DNA of 51,599 nt from Phycisphaerales bacterium (lineage in GTDB: Bacteria > Planctomycetota > Phycisphaerae > Phycisphaerales > UBA1924), in the NCBI GenBank assembly GCA_022843565.1, contig JALHNK010000005.1, positions 1 through 51,599 of the forward strand. Reading direction: 5' to 3'. The notes under the pieces are model-generated. The model saw only the letters and a program-made list of their open reading frames with translations, did no database searches and was not told where the DNA came from. Made by a program: the position numbers and the translations under genes. Below, piece by piece: positions 97 through 35,539 of the stretch. The stretch's first letter is position 1; every line of letters starts with the position of its first letter.

Positions 97-2124
97 ATGA
101 AACTTCTTCCGACGATCAACTCGCCCGCCGATCTCCGCAAGCTCTCGATCGATCAGCTCCCGCAGGTCGCCAGCGAGATCCGCGAGGCGATTTTCGCCCA
201 GGTCTCCAAGACCGGCGGCCACCTGGCCCCCAATCTCGGCGTGGTCGAGTTGTCCATCGCCCTGCACTATGTCTTTGATTTCGGCTTTGACCGTCTGCTC
301 TTTGACGTCGGCCACCAGTGCTACCCGCACAAGCTGTTGACCGGCCGCCTCAAGATGCTCGACGGCCTGCGCACCAGCGCGGGGATGGCCGGCTTCCCCG
401 AGCCGCGCGAGTCCAGCTTCGACCTCTTCTCCGTCGGGCACGCCGGCACCGGCATCTCGACGGCGGTGGGCATGGCTCGCGGCGATTCGCTCAACGGCGA
501 CGGCTTCGATCCGGCCAAGGCCCCGAGCGGCCGGCGCGTGGTCACGATCATCGGCGATGCCTCGATCGTCAACGGCGTCGCCATGGAAGGCCTCAACGGC
601 GCCGGCACGCTCAAGCGCCAGTTCATGGTCATCCTCAACGACAACGGGATGAGCATCAGCAAGCCGCAGGGTGCCGTGGCGCACTACTTCGACAAGCTCC
701 GCATCTCGAACACCTACACCGGCATGAAGGAAGCGGCCAAGGAACTCCTGGCCAGCGTCCCCGGCGGCAGCGCGATGCGCGAGGCGTATCACGTCATGGG
801 CGAGGGGATGAAGGCGGTCCTTAACGAGGGCGCGTGGTTCGAGCACTTCGGCCTCGTCACCGTCGGTCCCGTCGATGGGCACAACCTGCCCGAGCTGATC
901 AAGGTCCTGCAAGAGGCGAAGAACTTTGATCGCCCGATGGTGCTGCACGTCAAGACCATCAAGGGCAAGGGCCTGTCGTTCGCGGAGCGCGACGCCAGCA
1001 CGTTCCACTCTCCCGCGGCGTTCACGGTGATCGGCGATCCGGATTCCAGCCGACTGGAGAATGAGGGCTGCCGCGTCGAGATCAAGAAGGATGGCCGGTC
1101 CTTCACCGCCGCGATCGGCGAGATCATGGTCGAGGCCATGGCCAAGGACCCGAAGATCGTCACGGCCACGGCGGCGATGCCCGATGGCACCGGCATCGCC
1201 AAGACGCTCTCGAAGTTCCCCGAGCGTTCGTTCGACACCGGCATCTGCGAGAGCCACGCGCTGGACATGATGGCGGGCATGGCCAAGACCGGCTGGAAGC
1301 CGTTCTTCGCGGTGTACGCGACGTTCCTGCAGCGCGCGTTCGATCAGTGCTTCCAAGAGGTCAGCCTTCAGGGTCTGGCGGTCCGACTGCTGCTGGATCG
1401 CGCCGGCCTCGTCGGCGGCGACGGCGCGGTTCACCACGGCTTCTGCGATATCGCGATCTTGCGCGTGCTGCCCAAGGCGGCGATCATGGGCGCGATGGAT
1501 GAGCCGAGCCTGCGCGAAGCGGTCGAGTTCATGCGGACCTACGAGGACGGCCTCAGCAGCGTGCGCTACCCGCGCGACAGCGTCAGCGGCCTCTTCGCCA
1601 CCAAGGGCGAGTGCCCGCCGTTCCAGCTCGGCAAGGCCCGCTGCCTCACGCCGCAGTTTGATCTCGGCGCGCCGGGCAACAACGGCGCGGGTGTTCCGGA
1701 AGTCGCGGTCCTGGCCTTCGGCACCTGCGCCATCGACGCGGCGCTAGCGGCTGAGGAAGTCCGCAGCGAGGTCCGCACCTGCGTCTACGACGCACGGTTT
1801 GCGAAGCCGGTGGATGCCGATCTCATCGCACGCCTCATCAAGGCCAAGGTGCCGATCGTCACGGTCGAGGATCACTCCGTGGTCGCCGGGTTCGGCGCCG
1901 CGGTCGTCGAAGCCGCGGCGGAGATGCACCTTGACGCCTCGCGCGTGATCAAGCTCGGCCTGCCGGACGCTTGGGTCTATCAGGACTCACGCGCCAAGCA
2001 GCAGGCCCTGGTGGGGATCGATGTCGCCGGTATCGCCAAGGCGATCCGCCAGGCCGCGGCGATGAACACGGGCACGCCGTCGGTGCAGGTGAAGGTCGCC
2101 AGCTCCGCCCGCACGATGGGATGA
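97..2124 (+). CDS. dxs: 1-deoxy-D-xylulose-5-phosphate synthase
   Basis: Thiamine-diphosphate enzyme that condenses pyruvate with glyceraldehyde-3-phosphate, the first step of the MEP isoprenoid pathway, in the cytoplasm. The 675-residue product carries the family landmarks in order: ALHYVF near residue 56 (position of the DXS active-site His), GHQCYPHKLLTGR near 72-84, the diphosphate/Mg motif GDAS...NDNGMSIS near 153-188, and a catalytic Glu in GICESHALDMM near 385, followed by the pyrimidine-binding and transketolase C-terminal domains. It is about 50 residues longer than the E. coli enzyme. The ATG at 97 is preferred over an in-frame TTG at 79 because homology begins there; a GGAG lies about 12 nt upstream, which is rather far. 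No other MEP gene is visible, and what lies upstream is outside the window. Confidence 0.96.
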   Translation: MKLLPTINSPADLRKLSIDQLPQVASEIREAIFAQVSKTGGHLAPNLGVVELSIALHYVFDFGFDRLLFDVGHQCYPHKLLTGRLKMLDGLRTSAGMAGFPEPRESSFDLFSVGHAGTGISTAVGMARGDSLNGDGFDPAKAPSGRRVVTIIGDASIVNGVAMEGLNGAGTLKRQFMVILNDNGMSISKPQGAVAHYFDKLRISNTYTGMKEAAKELLASVPGGSAMREAYHVMGEGMKAVLNEGAWFEHFGLVTVGPVDGHNLPELIKVLQEAKNFDRPMVLHVKTIKGKGLSFAERDASTFHSPAAFTVIGDPDSSRLENEGCRVEIKKDGRSFTAAIGEIMVEAMAKDPKIVTATAAMPDGTGIAKTLSKFPERSFDTGICESHALDMMAGMAKTGWKPFFAVYATFLQRAFDQCFQEVSLQGLAVRLLLDRAGLVGGDGAVHHGFCDIAILRVLPKAAIMGAMDEPSLREAVEFMRTYEDGLSSVRYPRDSVSGLFATKGECPPFQLGKARCLTPQFDLGAPGNNGAGVPEVAVLAFGTCAIDAALAAEEVRSEVRTCVYDARFAKPVDADLIARLIKAKVPIVTVEDHSVVAGFGAAVVEAAAEMHLDASRVIKLGLPDAWVYQDSRAKQQALVGIDVAGIAKAIRQAAAMNTGTPSVQVKVASSARTMG

Positions 2125-2176
2125 TCGAGAGGTTCCCGGGGCGCGGCCTGGTGATCGGAGCATTCGCAGAATGAAC

Positions 2177-2208
2177 AAAGCCCCGGCGCATGAGCGTCGG
2201 GGCTTTTT
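2177..2208. terminator. Intrinsic terminator between dxs and a convergent gene
   Basis: Arms AAAGCCCCGGCGC (2177-2189) and GCGTCGGGGCTTT (2194-2206) form a 13-bp stem with one G-U pair and a 4-nt loop, followed by a run of T on the plus strand. It sits 50 nt after the dxs stop and ends dxs transcription. The A residues on the left give a weaker U tract on the minus strand, so it may also serve the converging gene at 2266-2865. Confidence 0.88.
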
Positions 2209-2265
2209 GCTTTCAGACCGTCGATTGTCGCGTTGAAGCGATCGGCTGCGACGCGGTTGCTGGGC

Positions 2266-19376: not shown

Positions 19377-19701
19377 AGGAGGCCCATGGTAGCGCCGATG
19401 GAGCGCCCGGTGGAGGTTCACACTGCGGTGAAATCGCCAAGATCGGCGCGAGCGGGTTGGCGATGGGCCGCGGCGGCGGCCGGGGGTGTTACCGGTGGCG
19501 TGTGTTTATCGGAAGCGAGACGAGCGACGCAATCTCGCCCTGTTTCCCCAACCGGCGCGGGCACCTCGTGCGGCGTGTCAAGAGTGGTGCCGTGCGTGGT
19601 GGCGATCGTGCGTGTGTTGCACAGTGAGTGTGCGAGAAGCGAGTGCGACTCGCAATCACACGCAGAGCCCACGCACGCCATACTTCGAAAGAGAGACGAA
19701 A
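19377..19701. other. Divergent intergenic region, 325 bp
   Basis: Between nuoG and a sorting-signal protein gene. It contains a TACCAT close to nuoG and the dyad GCGAGT-GCG-ACTCGC at 19639-19653, about 50 bp before the plus-strand start, which could be an operator. Nothing coding is supported. Confidence 0.4.
19386..19391 (-). promoter_or_regulatory. Candidate -10 element (TACCAT) for nuoG, near-leaderless
   Basis: TACCAT on the minus strand ends 9 nt before the ATG at 19376; the bases between (GGGCCTCCT) resemble an anti-Shine-Dalgarno, not a ribosome site. Confidence 0.3.
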
Positions 19702-20439
19702 ATGAAGACCCTTGCGACCCTTGTTCTGACGACGGCGGCGCTGACCGCTGGTGCCAGCGCGGACATCGTCGGCAGCTATTACGTGCTGCCGAACAACATC
19801 CCCGGCACGCCCCGCCACATCGATGTGCAGAGCGGCATCGACGGCGGCATCGTCACCGGCCTCGTGCAATCCACGCTCGGCCCGAACGGGCTTCCCGTCG
19901 CCACCAACTTCGCCAAGACGCGCAGCTCTGGCAGCGGCAACATCCAGGACATCGATGCGACCACCAGCGAGATCCTGTGGTGGACGCCCGGCCGCACCGG
20001 CAACCGCACCGTCCTCTTCGAGAAGACCCAGTCGGACCCGACGCCGTTCACGATGCGGCAGAACTTCTTCCCCGATGGGCAGACCAGCAACGCCTGGGGC
20101 TTCCGCGCGGTGCGCTGGTCCGGCTCGTTCTTCATGAACCAGGCTGACATCGCGTCGCTCACGATGTCGCTTGAGGCCGACGACGACGCGTGGATCTTCA
20201 TCAACAACACCCTCGCGGTGGACAACGGCGGCGTCAAGGCGATCGGCCACGTCTCAAATCTCTTGGGCACCGGCATGGTCAACGCCGGCTGGAACACGAT
20301 CGACATCTTCTTCGCCGATCGCAATCAGGTGCAGTCGGGCATCGGCTTCCGCACCAATGCCAGCATCATCCCCACGCCTGGAGCCGCGGCCCTGATCGGC
20401 CTTTGCGGGCTCTGTGCCTCACGCCGCCGTCGCGTCTGA
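19702..20439 (+). CDS. Exported fibro-slime/PA14-like protein with PEP-CTERM-like tail
   Basis: A 245-residue secreted protein. Residues 1-20 are a signal peptide (MKTLATLVLTTAALTAGASA). Near residues 155-180 lies EADDDAWIFINNTLAVDNGG, the core of the fibro-slime domain (a PA14-like carbohydrate-binding fold). The C-terminus is IPTPGA, hydrophobic residues and RRRRV, the sorting signal shared with three other genes in this window. It may bind polysaccharide at the cell surface, by analogy. The ATG at 19702 is preceded by GAGAG at a fair distance. It is followed 43 nt after its stop by a strong hairpin. Confidence 0.85.
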   Translation: MKTLATLVLTTAALTAGASADIVGSYYVLPNNIPGTPRHIDVQSGIDGGIVTGLVQSTLGPNGLPVATNFAKTRSSGSGNIQDIDATTSEILWWTPGRTGNRTVLFEKTQSDPTPFTMRQNFFPDGQTSNAWGFRAVRWSGSFFMNQADIASLTMSLEADDDAWIFINNTLAVDNGGVKAIGHVSNLLGTGMVNAGWNTIDIFFADRNQVQSGIGFRTNASIIPTPGAAALIGLCGLCASRRRRV

Positions 20440-20603: not shown

Positions 20604-20811
20604 CCAAAATGGCTGAGATTTTCGATCGCACGTTGTTCGTACCGCTTCCGTGGGCATGATGTACTTGTGGCGCGATGGTCGCGCCGGCGGATGGAAGAGA
20701 GAGACTTTCCACCGATCACGTTGGATGTGCTGGGCGATCCGGCTGCGGAGCGAACGCGTGTTCGCCGCGCTGTCTGGTGGCCAGGGCGATCACTGTTTCG
20801 AGGAGAGAGAG

Positions 20812-21474
20812 ATGAAGAACTGGACTTCTTTGGCGGCGGTCGCTAGCGCGTTGTCCCTGACCATGATCTCGGGCGCCAGCGCCTCAGTCGTCACGGCGAC
20901 ATTCAACAACGTTGGCCCGAGCGAGGTCGTCACCGTGACGCTCGACGCGGGCGCCAACACGCGGCAGGTCCACTCGGGCCTCATGAACTGGACCCGCACC
21001 GGCGGCGATTACACCGGCGTCGGCACGACGTTCTGGACATTCTGCACCGAGATCACCGAGACCGTCAGCGGCGGTGCCTCGATCACCTATAACGTCATGG
21101 CCCCCGAGTTTGCGCCCAACACCGCGCCGATGGGTCCGGCTCGGGCCGCGCTGCTCTCGGAGCTGTTCGGTCGCTACATCGGTGTCGTCAACTTCGGCAG
21201 CGCGACGGACATGTCCGCGTTCCAGATGGCGGTCTGGGAGATCGCGTACGACGACGGCGTCGATCTCTCCGGTGGCGATTTCCGCGTCACTGCGGGCCCG
21301 AACCCCTCTCGCAACCTCGCGCAATCGTTCCTCAACGCACTGGACGGCACCGGCCCGCGGGTCAATGTTGACGCGCTGGTCAACGTTGGTCGTCAAGATC
21401 AGCTCGTGCCCACTCCGGGCGCCTTCGCTCTGCTCGGTCTGGCTGGGCTCGCGGGCTCGCGCCGCCGCCGCTAA
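20812..21474 (+). CDS. Exported protein with PEP-CTERM-like tail
   Basis: A 220-residue secreted protein. The signal peptide ends near residue 24 (ISGASA). The body has two Cys-free beta-rich halves around TTFWTFCTEITE, and ATDMSAFQMAVWEIAYDDG, a stretch that recurs in PEP-CTERM proteins of unknown role with a conserved FC...FQ.A.WEI pattern. The tail is VPTPGAFALLGLAGLAGSRRRR. The ribosome site is AGGAG, 6 nt before the ATG at 20812. It is the second sorting-signal gene in tandem with 19702-20439, but hairpin and spacing suggest separate transcription. Confidence 0.85.
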   Translation: MKNWTSLAAVASALSLTMISGASASVVTATFNNVGPSEVVTVTLDAGANTRQVHSGLMNWTRTGGDYTGVGTTFWTFCTEITETVSGGASITYNVMAPEFAPNTAPMGPARAALLSELFGRYIGVVNFGSATDMSAFQMAVWEIAYDDGVDLSGGDFRVTAGPNPSRNLAQSFLNALDGTGPRVNVDALVNVGRQDQLVPTPGAFALLGLAGLAGSRRRR

Positions 21475-30584: not shown

Positions 30585-31772
30585 GTGCAGAAGCTGTCAA
30601 GCGTCGCTGTGGTCGGTGCGTCCTTTCTGATCGCCGGAGCTGCGATGGCGCAGCCCGGGAGCCTTGCGGTGGTTCGCGTGGGTGCCGCGGGCGGCTCGGC
30701 CCCGCTGACCAGCGCCGCGGCGCCGGTCTTCATCGATCACTTTGGCGCGACAACAGTCGGCCAGGCTGCGCCGTCGCTGACTTGGGCCCTGCCCACGACG
30801 ACAGCTGGCGTGCAGCGCCGCTTGACGATCTCCGGGTCGCAGGTCGCTGAGGGCGGGCTGCAACTGTCCAGCAACGGGCAGTATCTCGTGCTGGGTGGTT
30901 ACGACGCGGGCGTGGGTACCGCCGCGGGCACCGGTGCTGGCCTCTTGAATAACGCCGGCACCCCACGCGTCGTGGCGCGGATTGACTCCAGCGGCAACAT
31001 CGACACCTCCACCGCTTACGCCAATGGCGAGTTCAGCGGCGGCGCGGGCACCGGTCTCCGTGGTGTCTACTCCGCCGACGGCACGTCGTTCTACGGCGTC
31101 GGTAACGGCACCGGCACGCTCCCGGCCACCAGCGGCGGCATCCGACGCGTCGCTTTCGGGAGCGTGACCTCGGCGGGCTCGCCTTCAACGCTCATCTCGC
31201 CCGGCAACTCCGGCACCGGCACCGCCAACGTCCGGCGTGCCATCGCGTTCAATGGCCAGCTCTTTGCGGCCACCAACTCCTCGCCTTTCACAGGCGTCAA
31301 CAGCGTCGGCACCGGCGTGCCGGTCACCAGCGGCAACTCGCAGACGAATCTCTTCGGTGCTGGCGGCAGTTCCTACGACTTCTTCTTCGCCTCCACCACC
31401 GTCGCGTACCTCACGGACACCCGCGCCATCGCCAGCGGCGGCGGACTGCAACGCTGGAACTTCGACGGCAGCGCCTGGGCCCTGGCGTACACGATCAACC
31501 TCGGCCTCGATCCCGCCAGCGGCCTCTCGGGCCTGACGGGATTGAGCCTCGCCGGCGGCAACGTCTACCTCGCGGGCGTCAGCGCCGATGGTCGCCGCCT
31601 GGTGACGACCACCGACAATCTCAGCAACGTCACTGCGTCGGCGGCCTTCTCCGTGCTGGCGACAGCCCCGGACAACACGTTCTTCCGTGGCGTGGCCATC
31701 CCCGCGCCCGGCGCCGCGGCGGCGATGGTCCTGGGTTCACTCCTGGCATCGCGTCGTCGTCGCCAGGTGTAA
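30585..31772 (+). CDS. Exported beta-propeller-like protein with PEP-CTERM-like tail
   Basis: A 395-residue secreted protein. The signal peptide ends at AMAQ (about residue 23). The body is rich in Gly, Ser, Thr and Asn with repeats of the type YSADGTSFYGVGNG, LSSNGQYLVLGGYDAG and LAGVSADGRRLVTT, as in beta-propeller surface proteins. The tail is VAIPAPGA, hydrophobic residues and RRRRQV, the local sorting signal. GTG start at 30585 with GGGAGG 6 nt upstream. The function is unknown; it is probably exposed at the cell surface. Confidence 0.85.
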   Translation: MQKLSSVAVVGASFLIAGAAMAQPGSLAVVRVGAAGGSAPLTSAAAPVFIDHFGATTVGQAAPSLTWALPTTTAGVQRRLTISGSQVAEGGLQLSSNGQYLVLGGYDAGVGTAAGTGAGLLNNAGTPRVVARIDSSGNIDTSTAYANGEFSGGAGTGLRGVYSADGTSFYGVGNGTGTLPATSGGIRRVAFGSVTSAGSPSTLISPGNSGTGTANVRRAIAFNGQLFAATNSSPFTGVNSVGTGVPVTSGNSQTNLFGAGGSSYDFFFASTTVAYLTDTRAIASGGGLQRWNFDGSAWALAYTINLGLDPASGLSGLTGLSLAGGNVYLAGVSADGRRLVTTTDNLSNVTASAAFSVLATAPDNTFFRGVAIPAPGAAAAMVLGSLLASRRRRQV

Positions 31773-31869: not shown

Positions 31870-32745
31870 GTGTCCGAGAACCTTGCCACCAGCTTCGCCC
31901 GGTCCGGTACCGCCTCGGGTTCGTTGATCGGGTTGCGCGCACTTGCTCACTTGGCCCGATTGTCGGGCGGGGTGATGTGCGTGCGCCCCGCACGGGTGGT
32001 GTGGCTCGCCCTCGCGGCACTGGCTCTGGCCGGTCCTGCGCTCGCGAGCCAGCCCGAGCCAACTCCAGCGCCGGCTCCGGCGGATCCCGCGCCGACTGCG
32101 CCGGCTGCCCCGGCCAAGCCCGAGTCACCGGCACCGGTGGTGCCTGCTCCTTTGCGCCCGGGCTTGAAGAACGAGCAGCCCAGTGCCGCGGGGATGGTCG
32201 GGCGCGATCAAACGATCACCGACCTGCAAGAAGCGCACGCCCTCGCGACATCTGTGATTGCCCAGAGCGAGCGATTCGCCAAGCAGGCCGACGACGAGGG
32301 CCAGGGGCAGGTCGCGTCGCTGTTTCGTGCGGTGAAGCGGTCGACCGAGATCCGCCAGAGGACGATCGCGACAGTCTTGCAGAAGCTCAGCGCTCCGGAG
32401 AAGGCGCCTGCGTCGGCCCCGGCAAGCCAGGCCAAGACCGCCGACAACATCAAGGCGCTGATCCAGACGATCGACCAGGAGAAGGACAAGCAGATCCCGC
32501 TGTACGTCTCTCGCGTGAAGACCGAGATGAACCGCGACGTGACGCAGGCCCTGCGCTACACGCGAGACGCCCTGCGCGAGCAGAGCGCGCTCCTGGGCGA
32601 GGCGCGCGACAACGCGAGCCAGTTCAAGGCCGGCGCGAAGGAGTATTACGTCTCGCGGACCTGCGGCTTCATGGTCGACAAGCTCGATTTCAAGAAGTGC
32701 CCGGTCTGCCTCGCCGCTCGCGACGACTTCGAACTCGTCAAGTGA
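31870..32745 (+). CDS. Exported rubrerythrin-like protein without metal ligands
   Basis: A 291-residue protein. After a hydrophobic segment (WLALAALALAGPALAS, about 45-60) and a Pro/Ala-rich linker comes a helical region (about 115-250) that follows rubrerythrin: ERFAKQADDEGQGQVASLFRA matches the AkkAkeEG..qIA.lFr block, and a second half follows. The C-terminus (TCGFMVDKLDFKKCPVCLAARDDFELV) matches the rubredoxin-like domain. The di-iron Glu and His positions appear replaced (Thr, Arg), and one of four rubredoxin cysteines is Ser. The GTG at 31870 is chosen for its AGGAG; an ATG at 31975 would give a standard signal peptide. Confidence 0.75.
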   Translation: MSENLATSFARSGTASGSLIGLRALAHLARLSGGVMCVRPARVVWLALAALALAGPALASQPEPTPAPAPADPAPTAPAAPAKPESPAPVVPAPLRPGLKNEQPSAAGMVGRDQTITDLQEAHALATSVIAQSERFAKQADDEGQGQVASLFRAVKRSTEIRQRTIATVLQKLSAPEKAPASAPASQAKTADNIKALIQTIDQEKDKQIPLYVSRVKTEMNRDVTQALRYTRDALREQSALLGEARDNASQFKAGAKEYYVSRTCGFMVDKLDFKKCPVCLAARDDFELVK

Positions 32746-33057: not shown

Positions 33058-33831
33058 ATGCTCGGTTCAGCTCTTCATCAACGCCCCACCATGACGACCT
33101 CATCTGCGAACGACCCGTTGCCTCGCTCGGACCAGAGACCCCCCGCGGACAGCTCGCTCCTCAGCGGCAACGCGGCTCTCACCGGCGTCACGACGCTCTA
33201 CGTCGTCAATCCCAGCGGCGGCGAACGCCGTCGCCTCGCGTCGGTGCTCGAGTCGCACGGCGCGTCCATCCGCGAGCTTTCCAGCGCCAGCGACATGCTC
33301 TCGCACGTCGACTCGGGCACGTTGGGCTGTCTCATCTGCGACTCGGACCTTGGCGGCTCCAGCGGGCTGCACCTGCTGGCGCAGCTTCACGCCACGGGCG
33401 TTGTCATGCCCACGGTGATGCTCATCTCGCCGGGCGACGTTCACGGCGCCGTCGCCGCGATGAAGGCCGGCGTTGGCGAGATCGTTGTCAAGCCGGCGGA
33501 TCCGGGCGAGCTGTTGCACGCGGTCCGCAGCGTGATCGAGCGTGCTCGCACGGGCGTCTCGCAGAGGGAGTCGGTTGGTGAGCTGCTTCGGTTGCAGTCC
33601 AGGCTCACCTCGCGAGAGCTGATGGTGATGCGGCTGATCTGCCGCGGCAGTTCGAACAAGCAGGCGGCATCGGAGATGCAGTTGGCGGTGAAGACGATCG
33701 AGATCCATCGGGCCAACGTGATGCGGAAGATGGGTTGCAAGAGTTTCGCGCAGCTCGTTCGCCAGGCGGTCATGCTGGAGAACACGCTGACGCCGCTGAA
33801 CCACCCGATCGTGGTCGGCGGGCGTCGCTAA
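33058..33831 (+). CDS. NarL/FixJ-type response regulator with altered receiver domain
   Basis: A 257-residue regulator. Residues about 45-165 are a receiver domain and 183-240 a LuxR-type DNA-binding domain (LTSRELMVMRLICRGSSNKQAASEM and the recognition helix VKTIEIHRANVMRKM). Asp 95 (CLICDSDLGG) aligns with the phospho-acceptor and Lys 145 (VVKPAD) is kept, but the paired acidic residues of the Mg pocket are replaced by VVNPSGG, and Ser 124 takes the Thr position. It may be phosphorylated poorly or not at all. No histidine kinase is nearby. AGGAG is 6 nt before the ATG. The stop overlaps the purK stop by 3 nt. Confidence 0.88.
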   Translation: MLGSALHQRPTMTTSSANDPLPRSDQRPPADSSLLSGNAALTGVTTLYVVNPSGGERRRLASVLESHGASIRELSSASDMLSHVDSGTLGCLICDSDLGGSSGLHLLAQLHATGVVMPTVMLISPGDVHGAVAAMKAGVGEIVVKPADPGELLHAVRSVIERARTGVSQRESVGELLRLQSRLTSRELMVMRLICRGSSNKQAASEMQLAVKTIEIHRANVMRKMGCKSFAQLVRQAVMLENTLTPLNHPIVVGGRR

Positions 33832-35003
33832 GGCGACGGTTCGAACGCGACCTTGCCCAGCGCGCTGAGATCAATGCCGACGAGGTTCGCATTCCGAAGC
33901 TCGTTGAGGCGGCGCCGGAGCTCGGTCGCGTCGGGAGCGACGACGTTCAGGTGGCCGACCTTGCGCCCGGCCCGGGGCTTCTTGGCGTAGTCGTGAACTC
34001 GCAGGAACGGGATCGCGCAGCTCGCGCCGGCTTCGGGCATCTGTGCGATGACGTTCACCATCGCGCTGTGCCCGGTACACGCACAATCGCCCAGCGGCAA
34101 GCCGACGACCGCGCGCAGGTGGTTCTCAAACTGGCTCGTCACCGCCCCGTCGATTGTCCAGTGCCCACTGTTGTGGACGCGCGGCGCGATCTCGTTGGCG
34201 ATGAGTGACCCGCCGAGCCCGCCGGCGCTGTCGGCGGACTCGAACAGCTCCAGGGCCATCACGCCGACGTAGTCTAGCTCGCTCATCACCTTTCGCACCA
34301 GAGACTCTGCGTGCGACTGAAGCTCCGGCGACACGCGCGGCGCCGGCGCGATCGACAGGCGCAGGATGCCCGCGGCGTGGTGGTTCTCGGTGAGCGTGTA
34401 GCACCGCACCTCGCCCTGGCTGGAACGCACGCCGAGGATCGAGAGCTCGCGCGAGAACGCGATGAACTGTTCGTAGATCAGGGCCGCGTTCGAGGCTGGC
34501 GCGTTGAGTGCGGCCCAGGCCTCATCGACCTGTGACGCGGACTTGATCACGCACTGGCCCTTGCCGTCGTAGCCGAAGCGGCGCGTCTTCAACACACCGG
34601 GGGCGCCGATCAACTCGACCGCCGCCCGCAGGTCTGCCATCGAGTCCACCTTCGCAAAGCGCGGCGTTGGGATTCCCAGCCGCTGAAAGAGCGTCTTTTC
34701 GCTCAGTCGGTCCTGGGCGACGCTGAGGGCGGTTGCCGATGGACGCATCGGGACGCCGAGGGCCGCGATGGACTCAGCGAGCGCGGCGGGCACGTTCTCG
34801 AACTCGAGCGTGCATGAATCGAGATTGCGGACGAAGTTGGTTAGCGCGTAGGCGTCGTCGAACGGCGCGTGGATGGTGGGGGCGATCTCGGTGGTGCCGG
34901 CGTCCGGAGATGGCTCCCAGACGCGGAAGCGCAGGCCCAGGCGTGTGCCGGCGAGCACGAGCATCCGGGCCAGTTGCCCGCCGCCGAGGATGCCGACGAT
35001 CAT
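33828..35003 (-). CDS. purK: N5-carboxyaminoimidazole ribonucleotide synthase
   Basis: A 391-residue ATP-grasp enzyme that carboxylates AIR with ATP and bicarbonate in purine synthesis. It starts [15 protein letters not shown], the family opening, with [12 protein letters not shown] as the ATP-grasp loop, [15 protein letters not shown] and the catalytic [13 protein letters not shown]. The product feeds PurE, encoded just upstream with a 4-nt overlap (ATGA). It is slightly longer than E. coli PurK (355). Confidence 0.95.
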
Positions 35004-35539
35004 CGGCGCGGCTCCTTTGGATGTGCTCCGTCGCTGGCGGGCCCCGGAAGGTTGGGCGGCGGCACGATGCTGTCGAGGGCTTGCTGCGTTTGCGCGAGCC
35101 GGAAGGCTTCGAGCGCTTCGAGGATGTGCGGGTGTTTGCCAACGAGGATCGATGCGGCCAGAAGCGCGGCGTTGATCGCGCCGGCTCGCCCGATGGCGAG
35201 CGTGCCGACGGGAACTCCGGCGGGCATCTGGACGATCGAGAGCAGGCTGTCGACACCTTGCAGGGCTTTGGATTCGACGGGCACGCCGAGGATCGGCAGG
35301 GAGGTCTTGCTGGCGCACATGCCCGGCAGGTGGGCGGCGCCGCCGGCGCCGGCGATGATCACTTCGATGCCGCGGGCGCGAGCGCCCGCGGCGTACTCGA
35401 AGAGCAGATCCGGTGTGCGATGAGCGGAGACGACACGGGTCTCATGCGGGATCGACAAGCGCTCCAGCGTCGCGGCGCTATGTTGCATCGTCTCCCAATC
35501 GGACGAGGAACCCATGATGACGCCGACCAGCGGGGGCAT
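35000..35539 (-). CDS. purE: N5-carboxyaminoimidazole ribonucleotide mutase
   Basis: A 179-residue class I PurE that moves the carboxyl group of N5-CAIR to C4, the step after PurK. Motifs: [41 protein letters not shown] and [23 protein letters not shown]. It has a 15-residue polar tail beyond the family end. It is coupled to purK and begins 40 nt after the stop of a small lipoprotein gene, so the three may form an operon. Confidence 0.95.

Follow-up and report, generated by a model that had tools for sequence, protein, structure and literature searches.

A predicted exported rubrerythrin relative of Phycisphaerales that has lost most of its diiron ligands and may serve a regulatory circuit

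Rubrerythrin is an iron-containing enzyme that destroys peroxide, and the product of the open reading frame at 31870-32745 of the window is almost certainly a relative of it that has lost the diiron site; its export from the cytoplasm is predicted with high confidence. The window is the whole stretch of 51,599 nucleotides that was analysed, positions 1 to 51,599 of contig JALHNK010000005.1 from a Phycisphaerales bacterium (assembly GCA_022843565.1). As regards the role of the protein, our preferred reading is a tentative one, to which we give somewhat less than an even chance: an exported pseudo-rubrerythrin, non-catalytic and perhaps thiol- or metal-responsive, which would act as an envelope partner of a regulatory circuit.

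The open reading frame at 31870-32745 was confirmed. The preliminary description had it begin at GTG 31870, 35 codons ahead of ATG 31975; the latter start is preferred, not proven, because the signal sequence is cleaner from there. GC content by codon position over 31975-32742 (0.69/0.50/0.85) matched the pattern expected of coding frames in the window. The 256-residue product is laid out as a signal sequence, a Pro/Ala-rich linker, a four-helix bundle and a rubredoxin-like end:

31975..32745, + strand: CDS of P0001, the predicted exported rubrerythrin-like protein, 256 aa, stop at 32745
31975..32046, + strand: putative Sec-type signal sequence, MCVRPARVVWLALAALALAGPALA followed by SQ, cleavage after ALA judged by eye
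32047..32196, + strand: Pro/Ala-rich linker, seen in the translation
32197..32622, + strand: ferritin-like four-helix bundle, ligand positions A91, T124, R127, I166, E169, L200 and Q203
32644..32742, + strand: rubredoxin-like C-terminal domain, three of four Cys (S227, C230, C242, C245)

The N-terminus contains a hydrophobic 14-mer (mean 2.12) preceded by basic residues. No promoters or terminators above chance were found by the scan, and PHROGs gave no relevant match. Three other frames of the window (19486-20439, 20650-21474 and 30585-31772) display a hydrophobic stretch and an Arg cluster at the C-terminal end, PEP-CTERM-like by eye; the first had a fibro-slime match below cut-off, the second weak PEP-CTERM matches and the third none.

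Profile and structure comparisons agreed on the family of the protein. The NCBIfam nigerythrin profile matched residues 74-253 (E 1.6e-12), spanning both domains, the NCBIfam rubrerythrin profile matched over almost its whole domain (3.4e-8), and the closest solved relative by sequence in the PDB was the nigerythrin of D. vulgaris (E 1.2e-7). Score cut-offs were not passed by the window protein, which reached 47.9 bits against the curated cut-off of 340 for NCBIfam nigerythrin, 13.5 (14.3 without the N-terminus) against 22.8 bits for Pfam Rubrerythrin (PF02915), and 16.1 (16.6 without the N-terminus) against 26.5 bits for Pfam RUBY_RBDX (PF21349). The PF02915 cut-off was passed by four of the ten members of its clade, which argues that the clade belongs with the rubrerythrin family. 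AlphaFold2, run on the window protein plus five relatives, gave a model with four long helices and two terminal strands (pLDDT 89.4, pTM 0.88). Nigerythrin came out on top in Foldseek (E 1.2e-8, TM 0.85) and first in VIA-align 2 (Z 24.4, rmsd 1.8 A over 175 residues, 22% identity), where the runner-up was a bacterioferritin (Z 19.7). A second model led by the protein of locus L034 (pLDDT 94.0, pTM 0.91) gave Z 24.9 over 174 residues with nigerythrin, the next entry having 18.8; the two models were built from the identical six sequences, with a different one in the lead, and are not independent. Among the 50 best VIA-align 2 matches listed for the window model, nigerythrin was the sole rubrerythrin type; 1b71 and 1ryt were present in other structure-match listings (Foldseek or the L034-led model). 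The predicted fold, a four-helix bundle followed by a rubredoxin-like domain as in rubrerythrin and nigerythrin, is well supported, and a chance resemblance to rubrerythrin was ruled out by the sequence E-values and both models. The preliminary description had recognised a rubrerythrin-like helical region and a rubredoxin-like C-terminus from the sequence alone, and both were confirmed by the profile matches, the fold and the nigerythrin score; a structure prediction could have lacked the ferritin-like bundle, and ours contained it.

The seven aligned Glu and His positions, which we take to be the diiron ligands of the rubrerythrin family, were assigned by alignment on nigerythrin and comprise a Glu in helix A, a Glu and a His in helix B, two Glu in helix C, and a Glu and a His in helix D. 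The window protein reads A, T, R, I, E, L, Q at these positions and keeps one of seven: Glu is replaced by Ala91 in helix A, Glu and His by Thr124 and Arg127 in helix B, the first Glu of helix C by Ile166, and Glu and His by Leu200 and Gln203 in helix D, with Glu169 of helix C retained. The replacements had first been given as Thr, Arg, Gln or Ile, all of which were correct; that list was incomplete, since Ala and Leu also occur and one Glu is kept. At the rubredoxin site the first of the four Cys is Ser227, as had been noticed, and Cys230, Cys242 and Cys245 are retained, leaving no full [Fe(Cys)4] set. The possibility of ligands intact at shifted positions was considered. Glu202, two residues past the helix D ligand Glu position, had been read as a kept ligand, a reading rejected by the full alignment, in which L083 has Glu at both places, and no full set of intact ligands was found elsewhere. 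Arg197 and Glu202 are invariant in all ten clade members; Arg197 is also present in L038/L039, and Glu202 in L037-L039 and L083. With one of seven ligands, and given rubrerythrin-family chemistry, diiron peroxidase activity is not expected of the window protein. Neither of the two working features of a rubrerythrin, the diiron ligand set and the FeS4 site, is complete in it, so the label 'functional rubrerythrin' does not apply.

Relatives were collected at several taxonomic depths. A first search returned 15 places, of which five were kept (the window's own and four others); the ten set aside matched mainly through a Pro/Ala-rich N-terminus, with weak E-values. The family-level profile search placed the gene in 10 of 163 genomes, the window's own included, and the order-level search in 13 of 400, namely the same ten plus L082, L083 and L084. 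The gene was absent from G001, the only genome marked as same genus among the rows listed. At the phylum level, matches occurred in 84 of 392 genomes and 30 loci were read, comprising two clade members, L037-L039, and 25 ligand-intact rubrerythrins. Ten open frames, at 27-35% identity to the window protein, make up the clade. Each keeps between none and three of the seven ligands: three in L006 and L026, two in L009, one in the window protein, L007, L008 and L028, and none in L025, L027 and L029. Every member has Ala, Leu or Thr in place of the helix A Glu, and Ala, Leu, Val or Ile in place of the first Glu of helix C. Exactly three of the four rubredoxin Cys are found in all ten; nine have lost the first, with Ser, His, Asp or Gly instead (Gly in L026), and L008 retains it and has Asp as the fourth. 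The Glu/His pattern was invariant among the comparison rubrerythrins (26 of 26 with all seven ligands), 25 of which had been chosen via a motif that includes the Glu of helix A; seven of seven are also present in L082, L083 and L084, which were not chosen by motif. Ligand loss in the window protein and its clade is well supported by these alignments, in line with the suggestion that ligands would be consistently absent in orthologues.

The distribution of changes was evaluated on 42 reference columns, each with a conservation of at least 90% among 18 intact proteins. Over the ten members, 12 of 70 cells were kept in the diiron columns, 30 of 40 in the Cys columns and 180 of 310 (58%) in the other 31 columns; a one-sided Mann-Whitney comparison of ligand with other columns gave p 0.016, which is indicative only, as columns are few and rows related. 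At that indicative level, losses seem to be concentrated at the metal site, general divergence being part of the picture. Nine of the 31 non-ligand columns survive in at most one member. They include the Gly that precedes the first Glu in helix A and in helix C, both the Met and the Tyr of MYP, and the His located four positions beyond the ligand His of helix B; no member retains the MYP Met and Tyr or this His. Bundle Leu, Ala and Arg positions, the Gly after the second Cys and the Pro after the third Cys are kept in all ten. Twelve of the 26 columns common to at least nine members fall in the last 31 residues of the Cys domain. As conservation is densest in this three-Cys domain, it is the likeliest working part of the protein. 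A decaying gene copy without function could be suspected from the lost catalytic residues and the patchy distribution; it is very improbable, given ten open frames that share the Cys pattern, the N-terminal segment and neighbours, and a loss concentrated at the metal site.

It is also conceivable that the protein is a residual redox or metal protein that has kept one Fe or Zn, bound by three Cys plus Ser, Asp or His or by leftover Glu or His of the bundle, and that serves electron transfer or oxidant scavenging outside the cytoplasm. All ten members arrived at three Cys by one of two routes, nine through loss of the first and L008 through loss of the fourth; L026 and L006, with three diiron ligands each, could still hold metal, and rubredoxins with a Cys-to-Ser ligand have been studied, to judge from the reference list of PMC10130062. 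However, L025, L027 and L029 have no ligand left, L026 offers a Gly at the first Cys, the MYP Met and Tyr and the later helix B His are gone throughout, and a passage of PMC9589262 states that rubrerythrin lost its peroxidase activity when zinc replaced the iron of FeS4. We consider this explanation quite improbable.

Export was assessed from the N-terminal segments. A hydrophobic segment is present in all ten members (14-mer mean 1.9-3.1) and absent from L083, L084 and L040; the signal sequence and Pro-rich linker of the preliminary description thus hold, the former as a prediction and the latter in the translation. L082 (genome G730; frame at about 1501-2226, minus strand) combines seven ligands, four Cys and an export-type N-terminus and might be a rubrerythrin that is active beyond the cytoplasm, so the statement that rubrerythrins are cytoplasmic needs a qualifier. 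A table row in PMC3824201 names rubrerythrin among supernatant proteins, with 'No' as its last entry.

In a tree built with ligand and Cys columns masked, the ten members formed one clade (99/96) within Phycisphaerales. Together with L082, L037 and L038/L039 they made a group of 14 (89/84, not starred), all with the hydrophobic N-terminal segment, and addition of L083, whose frame opens 11 codons ahead of the domain and leaves no room for a signal sequence, gave a group of 15 (99/95). The tree carries warnings for L009 and nigerythrin (long branches) and for L009 and L027 (odd composition). The relatives stand at several stages: intact without signal (L083), intact with signal (L082), partial loss (L037-L039) and lost (the clade). 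Export first and ligand loss later is the simplest order suggested by this arrangement, and ligands may have been lost more than once within the group of 14, whose inner forks are open. The window's genome (about 89% complete) showed no other rubrerythrin by PF02915 at E <= 0.01, in a search that also missed the window protein itself and the five members of G033, G036, G107, G108 and G152.

Gene neighbourhoods were compared over the ten loci. Two genes follow that of the window protein:

33058..33831, + strand: FixJ/LuxR-type response regulator, next gene downstream (Pfam/NCBIfam scan)
33828..35015, - strand: purK, convergent neighbour (NCBIfam; stretch as scanned, start codon not fixed)

NCBIfam also identified purE in the window, and purK lies near the gene in eight of the ten loci. 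A FixJ-type regulator is found directly 3' of the gene in seven (the window, G019, G036, G050, G107, G108 and G152), with none beside the gene in G033; NarL-type regulators occur in G152, G153 and G155 and are the sole regulator type in the latter two. A divergent histidine kinase accompanies the gene in four loci (G019, G033, G050 and G155), and the window's own locus has no kinase. All ten loci carry a two-component gene within the stretch read, a count that lacks a chance-rate control. The fullest order (divergent kinase, SOUL protein, rubrerythrin-like protein, FixJ-type regulator, convergent purK) was seen whole in G019. The neighbour profiles were made from seven of these regulators, three of the four kinases and the three SOUL proteins and match them by construction; Pfam confirmed the domains on representatives. 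As a control, purK matched in 52 of 61 genomes, and 30 loci were examined (5 carriers, 25 non-carriers): a FixJ-type regulator lay within 1.5 kb of purK in three of the five carriers versus none of the 25 non-carriers, the flanks being 1.5 kb long and possibly cut by contig ends.

A SOUL haem-binding gene is located directly upstream in three of the ten loci (L030, 4822-5772; L031; L027, 2439-3431). Genome-wide, SOUL genes were found in 6 of 10 carriers and 45 of 153 others (51 of 163 in total) by a search that missed the one of G050. With adjacency in just three loci and no SOUL gene found in the window's genome, the SOUL protein was rejected as a fixed partner. Next to the locus in L030 (48-4636) lies a row of genes for a PAS histidine kinase, a protein with a single STAS domain and an MshEN-containing type II/IV secretion ATPase, and the same row was seen by eye in L031 (1035-4878).

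In the kinases of G033 and G155, about 140 residues separate two membrane segments and leave room for an outside domain; the second segment of the G050 kinase was judged by eye only, and the G019 kinase has only a short membrane hairpin. The window's regulator keeps the acceptor Asp and Lys and reads NPS versus DDD or EDD, the receiver acidic pair, in the regulators of six relatives; it is possibly phosphorylation-independent. Owing to the missing kinase and this lost acidic pair, the circuit may be broken or rewired at the window locus, and the case for a signalling role is weaker for the window protein than for its relatives.

Under our preferred reading, the protein would have no catalytic activity and would work, beyond the cytoplasm, as a partner of the adjoining two-component circuit. 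The bundle would serve as a scaffold, and the three-Cys knob, with Ser, Asp, His or Gly at its fourth position, would respond through a weak hold on metal or through thiol oxidation; the histidine kinase and FixJ-type regulator would then alter expression, plausibly of the same operon. Participation in a two-component circuit appears a little less likely than not, and the knob as the responsive element is doubtful. The patchy occurrence of the gene (10 of 163 family genomes) speaks against this reading. It is unlikely that an exported rubrerythrin became, in these Phycisphaerales, an envelope redox or metal sensor feeding the histidine kinase and FixJ-type pair, a version in which the diiron site would have been emptied and one rubredoxin Cys exchanged for Ser, Asp, His or Gly, allowing that site to open.

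The protein may instead be a purely structural or scaffolding component of the envelope, its knob held by zinc or a disulphide and the nearby regulators merely controlling this gene or others. We regard this as possible, if on the less probable side: some core positions are kept in all ten members, the Pro/Ala-rich linker suggests a tethered part and the window's own locus is without a kinase, but a FixJ-type pairing in seven of ten loci exceeds the needs of a structural protein, and the densest conservation is held by the Cys domain. Because of this pairing, we modestly favour a role as regulatory partner over a purely structural one, and the earlier proposal of a 'structural or sensory' derivative leans toward sensory in view of the two-component neighbourhood.

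These proteins would represent a case of an exported iron enzyme retained despite the loss of its active site, on which the changes were focused. If the regulatory link is true, the fold of a redox enzyme now supplies sensor input from outside, and the knob would be a natural three-Cys candidate for metal or thiol chemistry. Caution is advisable with annotations, as a rubrerythrin-like label need not imply peroxide defence. An exported ligandless rubrerythrin is described in none of the titles and abstract openings listed by the literature searches, which covered open-licence papers.

Among known systems, the nigerythrin of Desulfovibrio vulgaris (PDB 1YUX/1YUZ) shares the fold over the whole domain, the C-terminal rubredoxin-like part included, and differs by its seven ligands and four Cys from the window protein, with one ligand, three Cys and a signal-type N-terminus. 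L082, from the same order, shares the N-terminal hydrophobic segment, the domain order and the tree group of 14, but has all seven ligands and four Cys. L037 and L038/L039, from other families of the same phylum, resemble the window protein in their hydrophobic N-terminal segment and in the loss of several ligands (two of seven kept in L037, one of seven in L038/L039), whereas they keep four Cys and fall outside the clade of ten. Sulerythrin and ferriperoxin belong to the same bundle family; an excerpt of PMC3317640 describes ferriperoxin as being without a rubredoxin-like domain, and in a passage of PMC9589262 sulerythrin is said to keep the two-metal site and to lack the rubredoxin domain. 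The window protein has lost the metal site and kept the rubredoxin-like domain.
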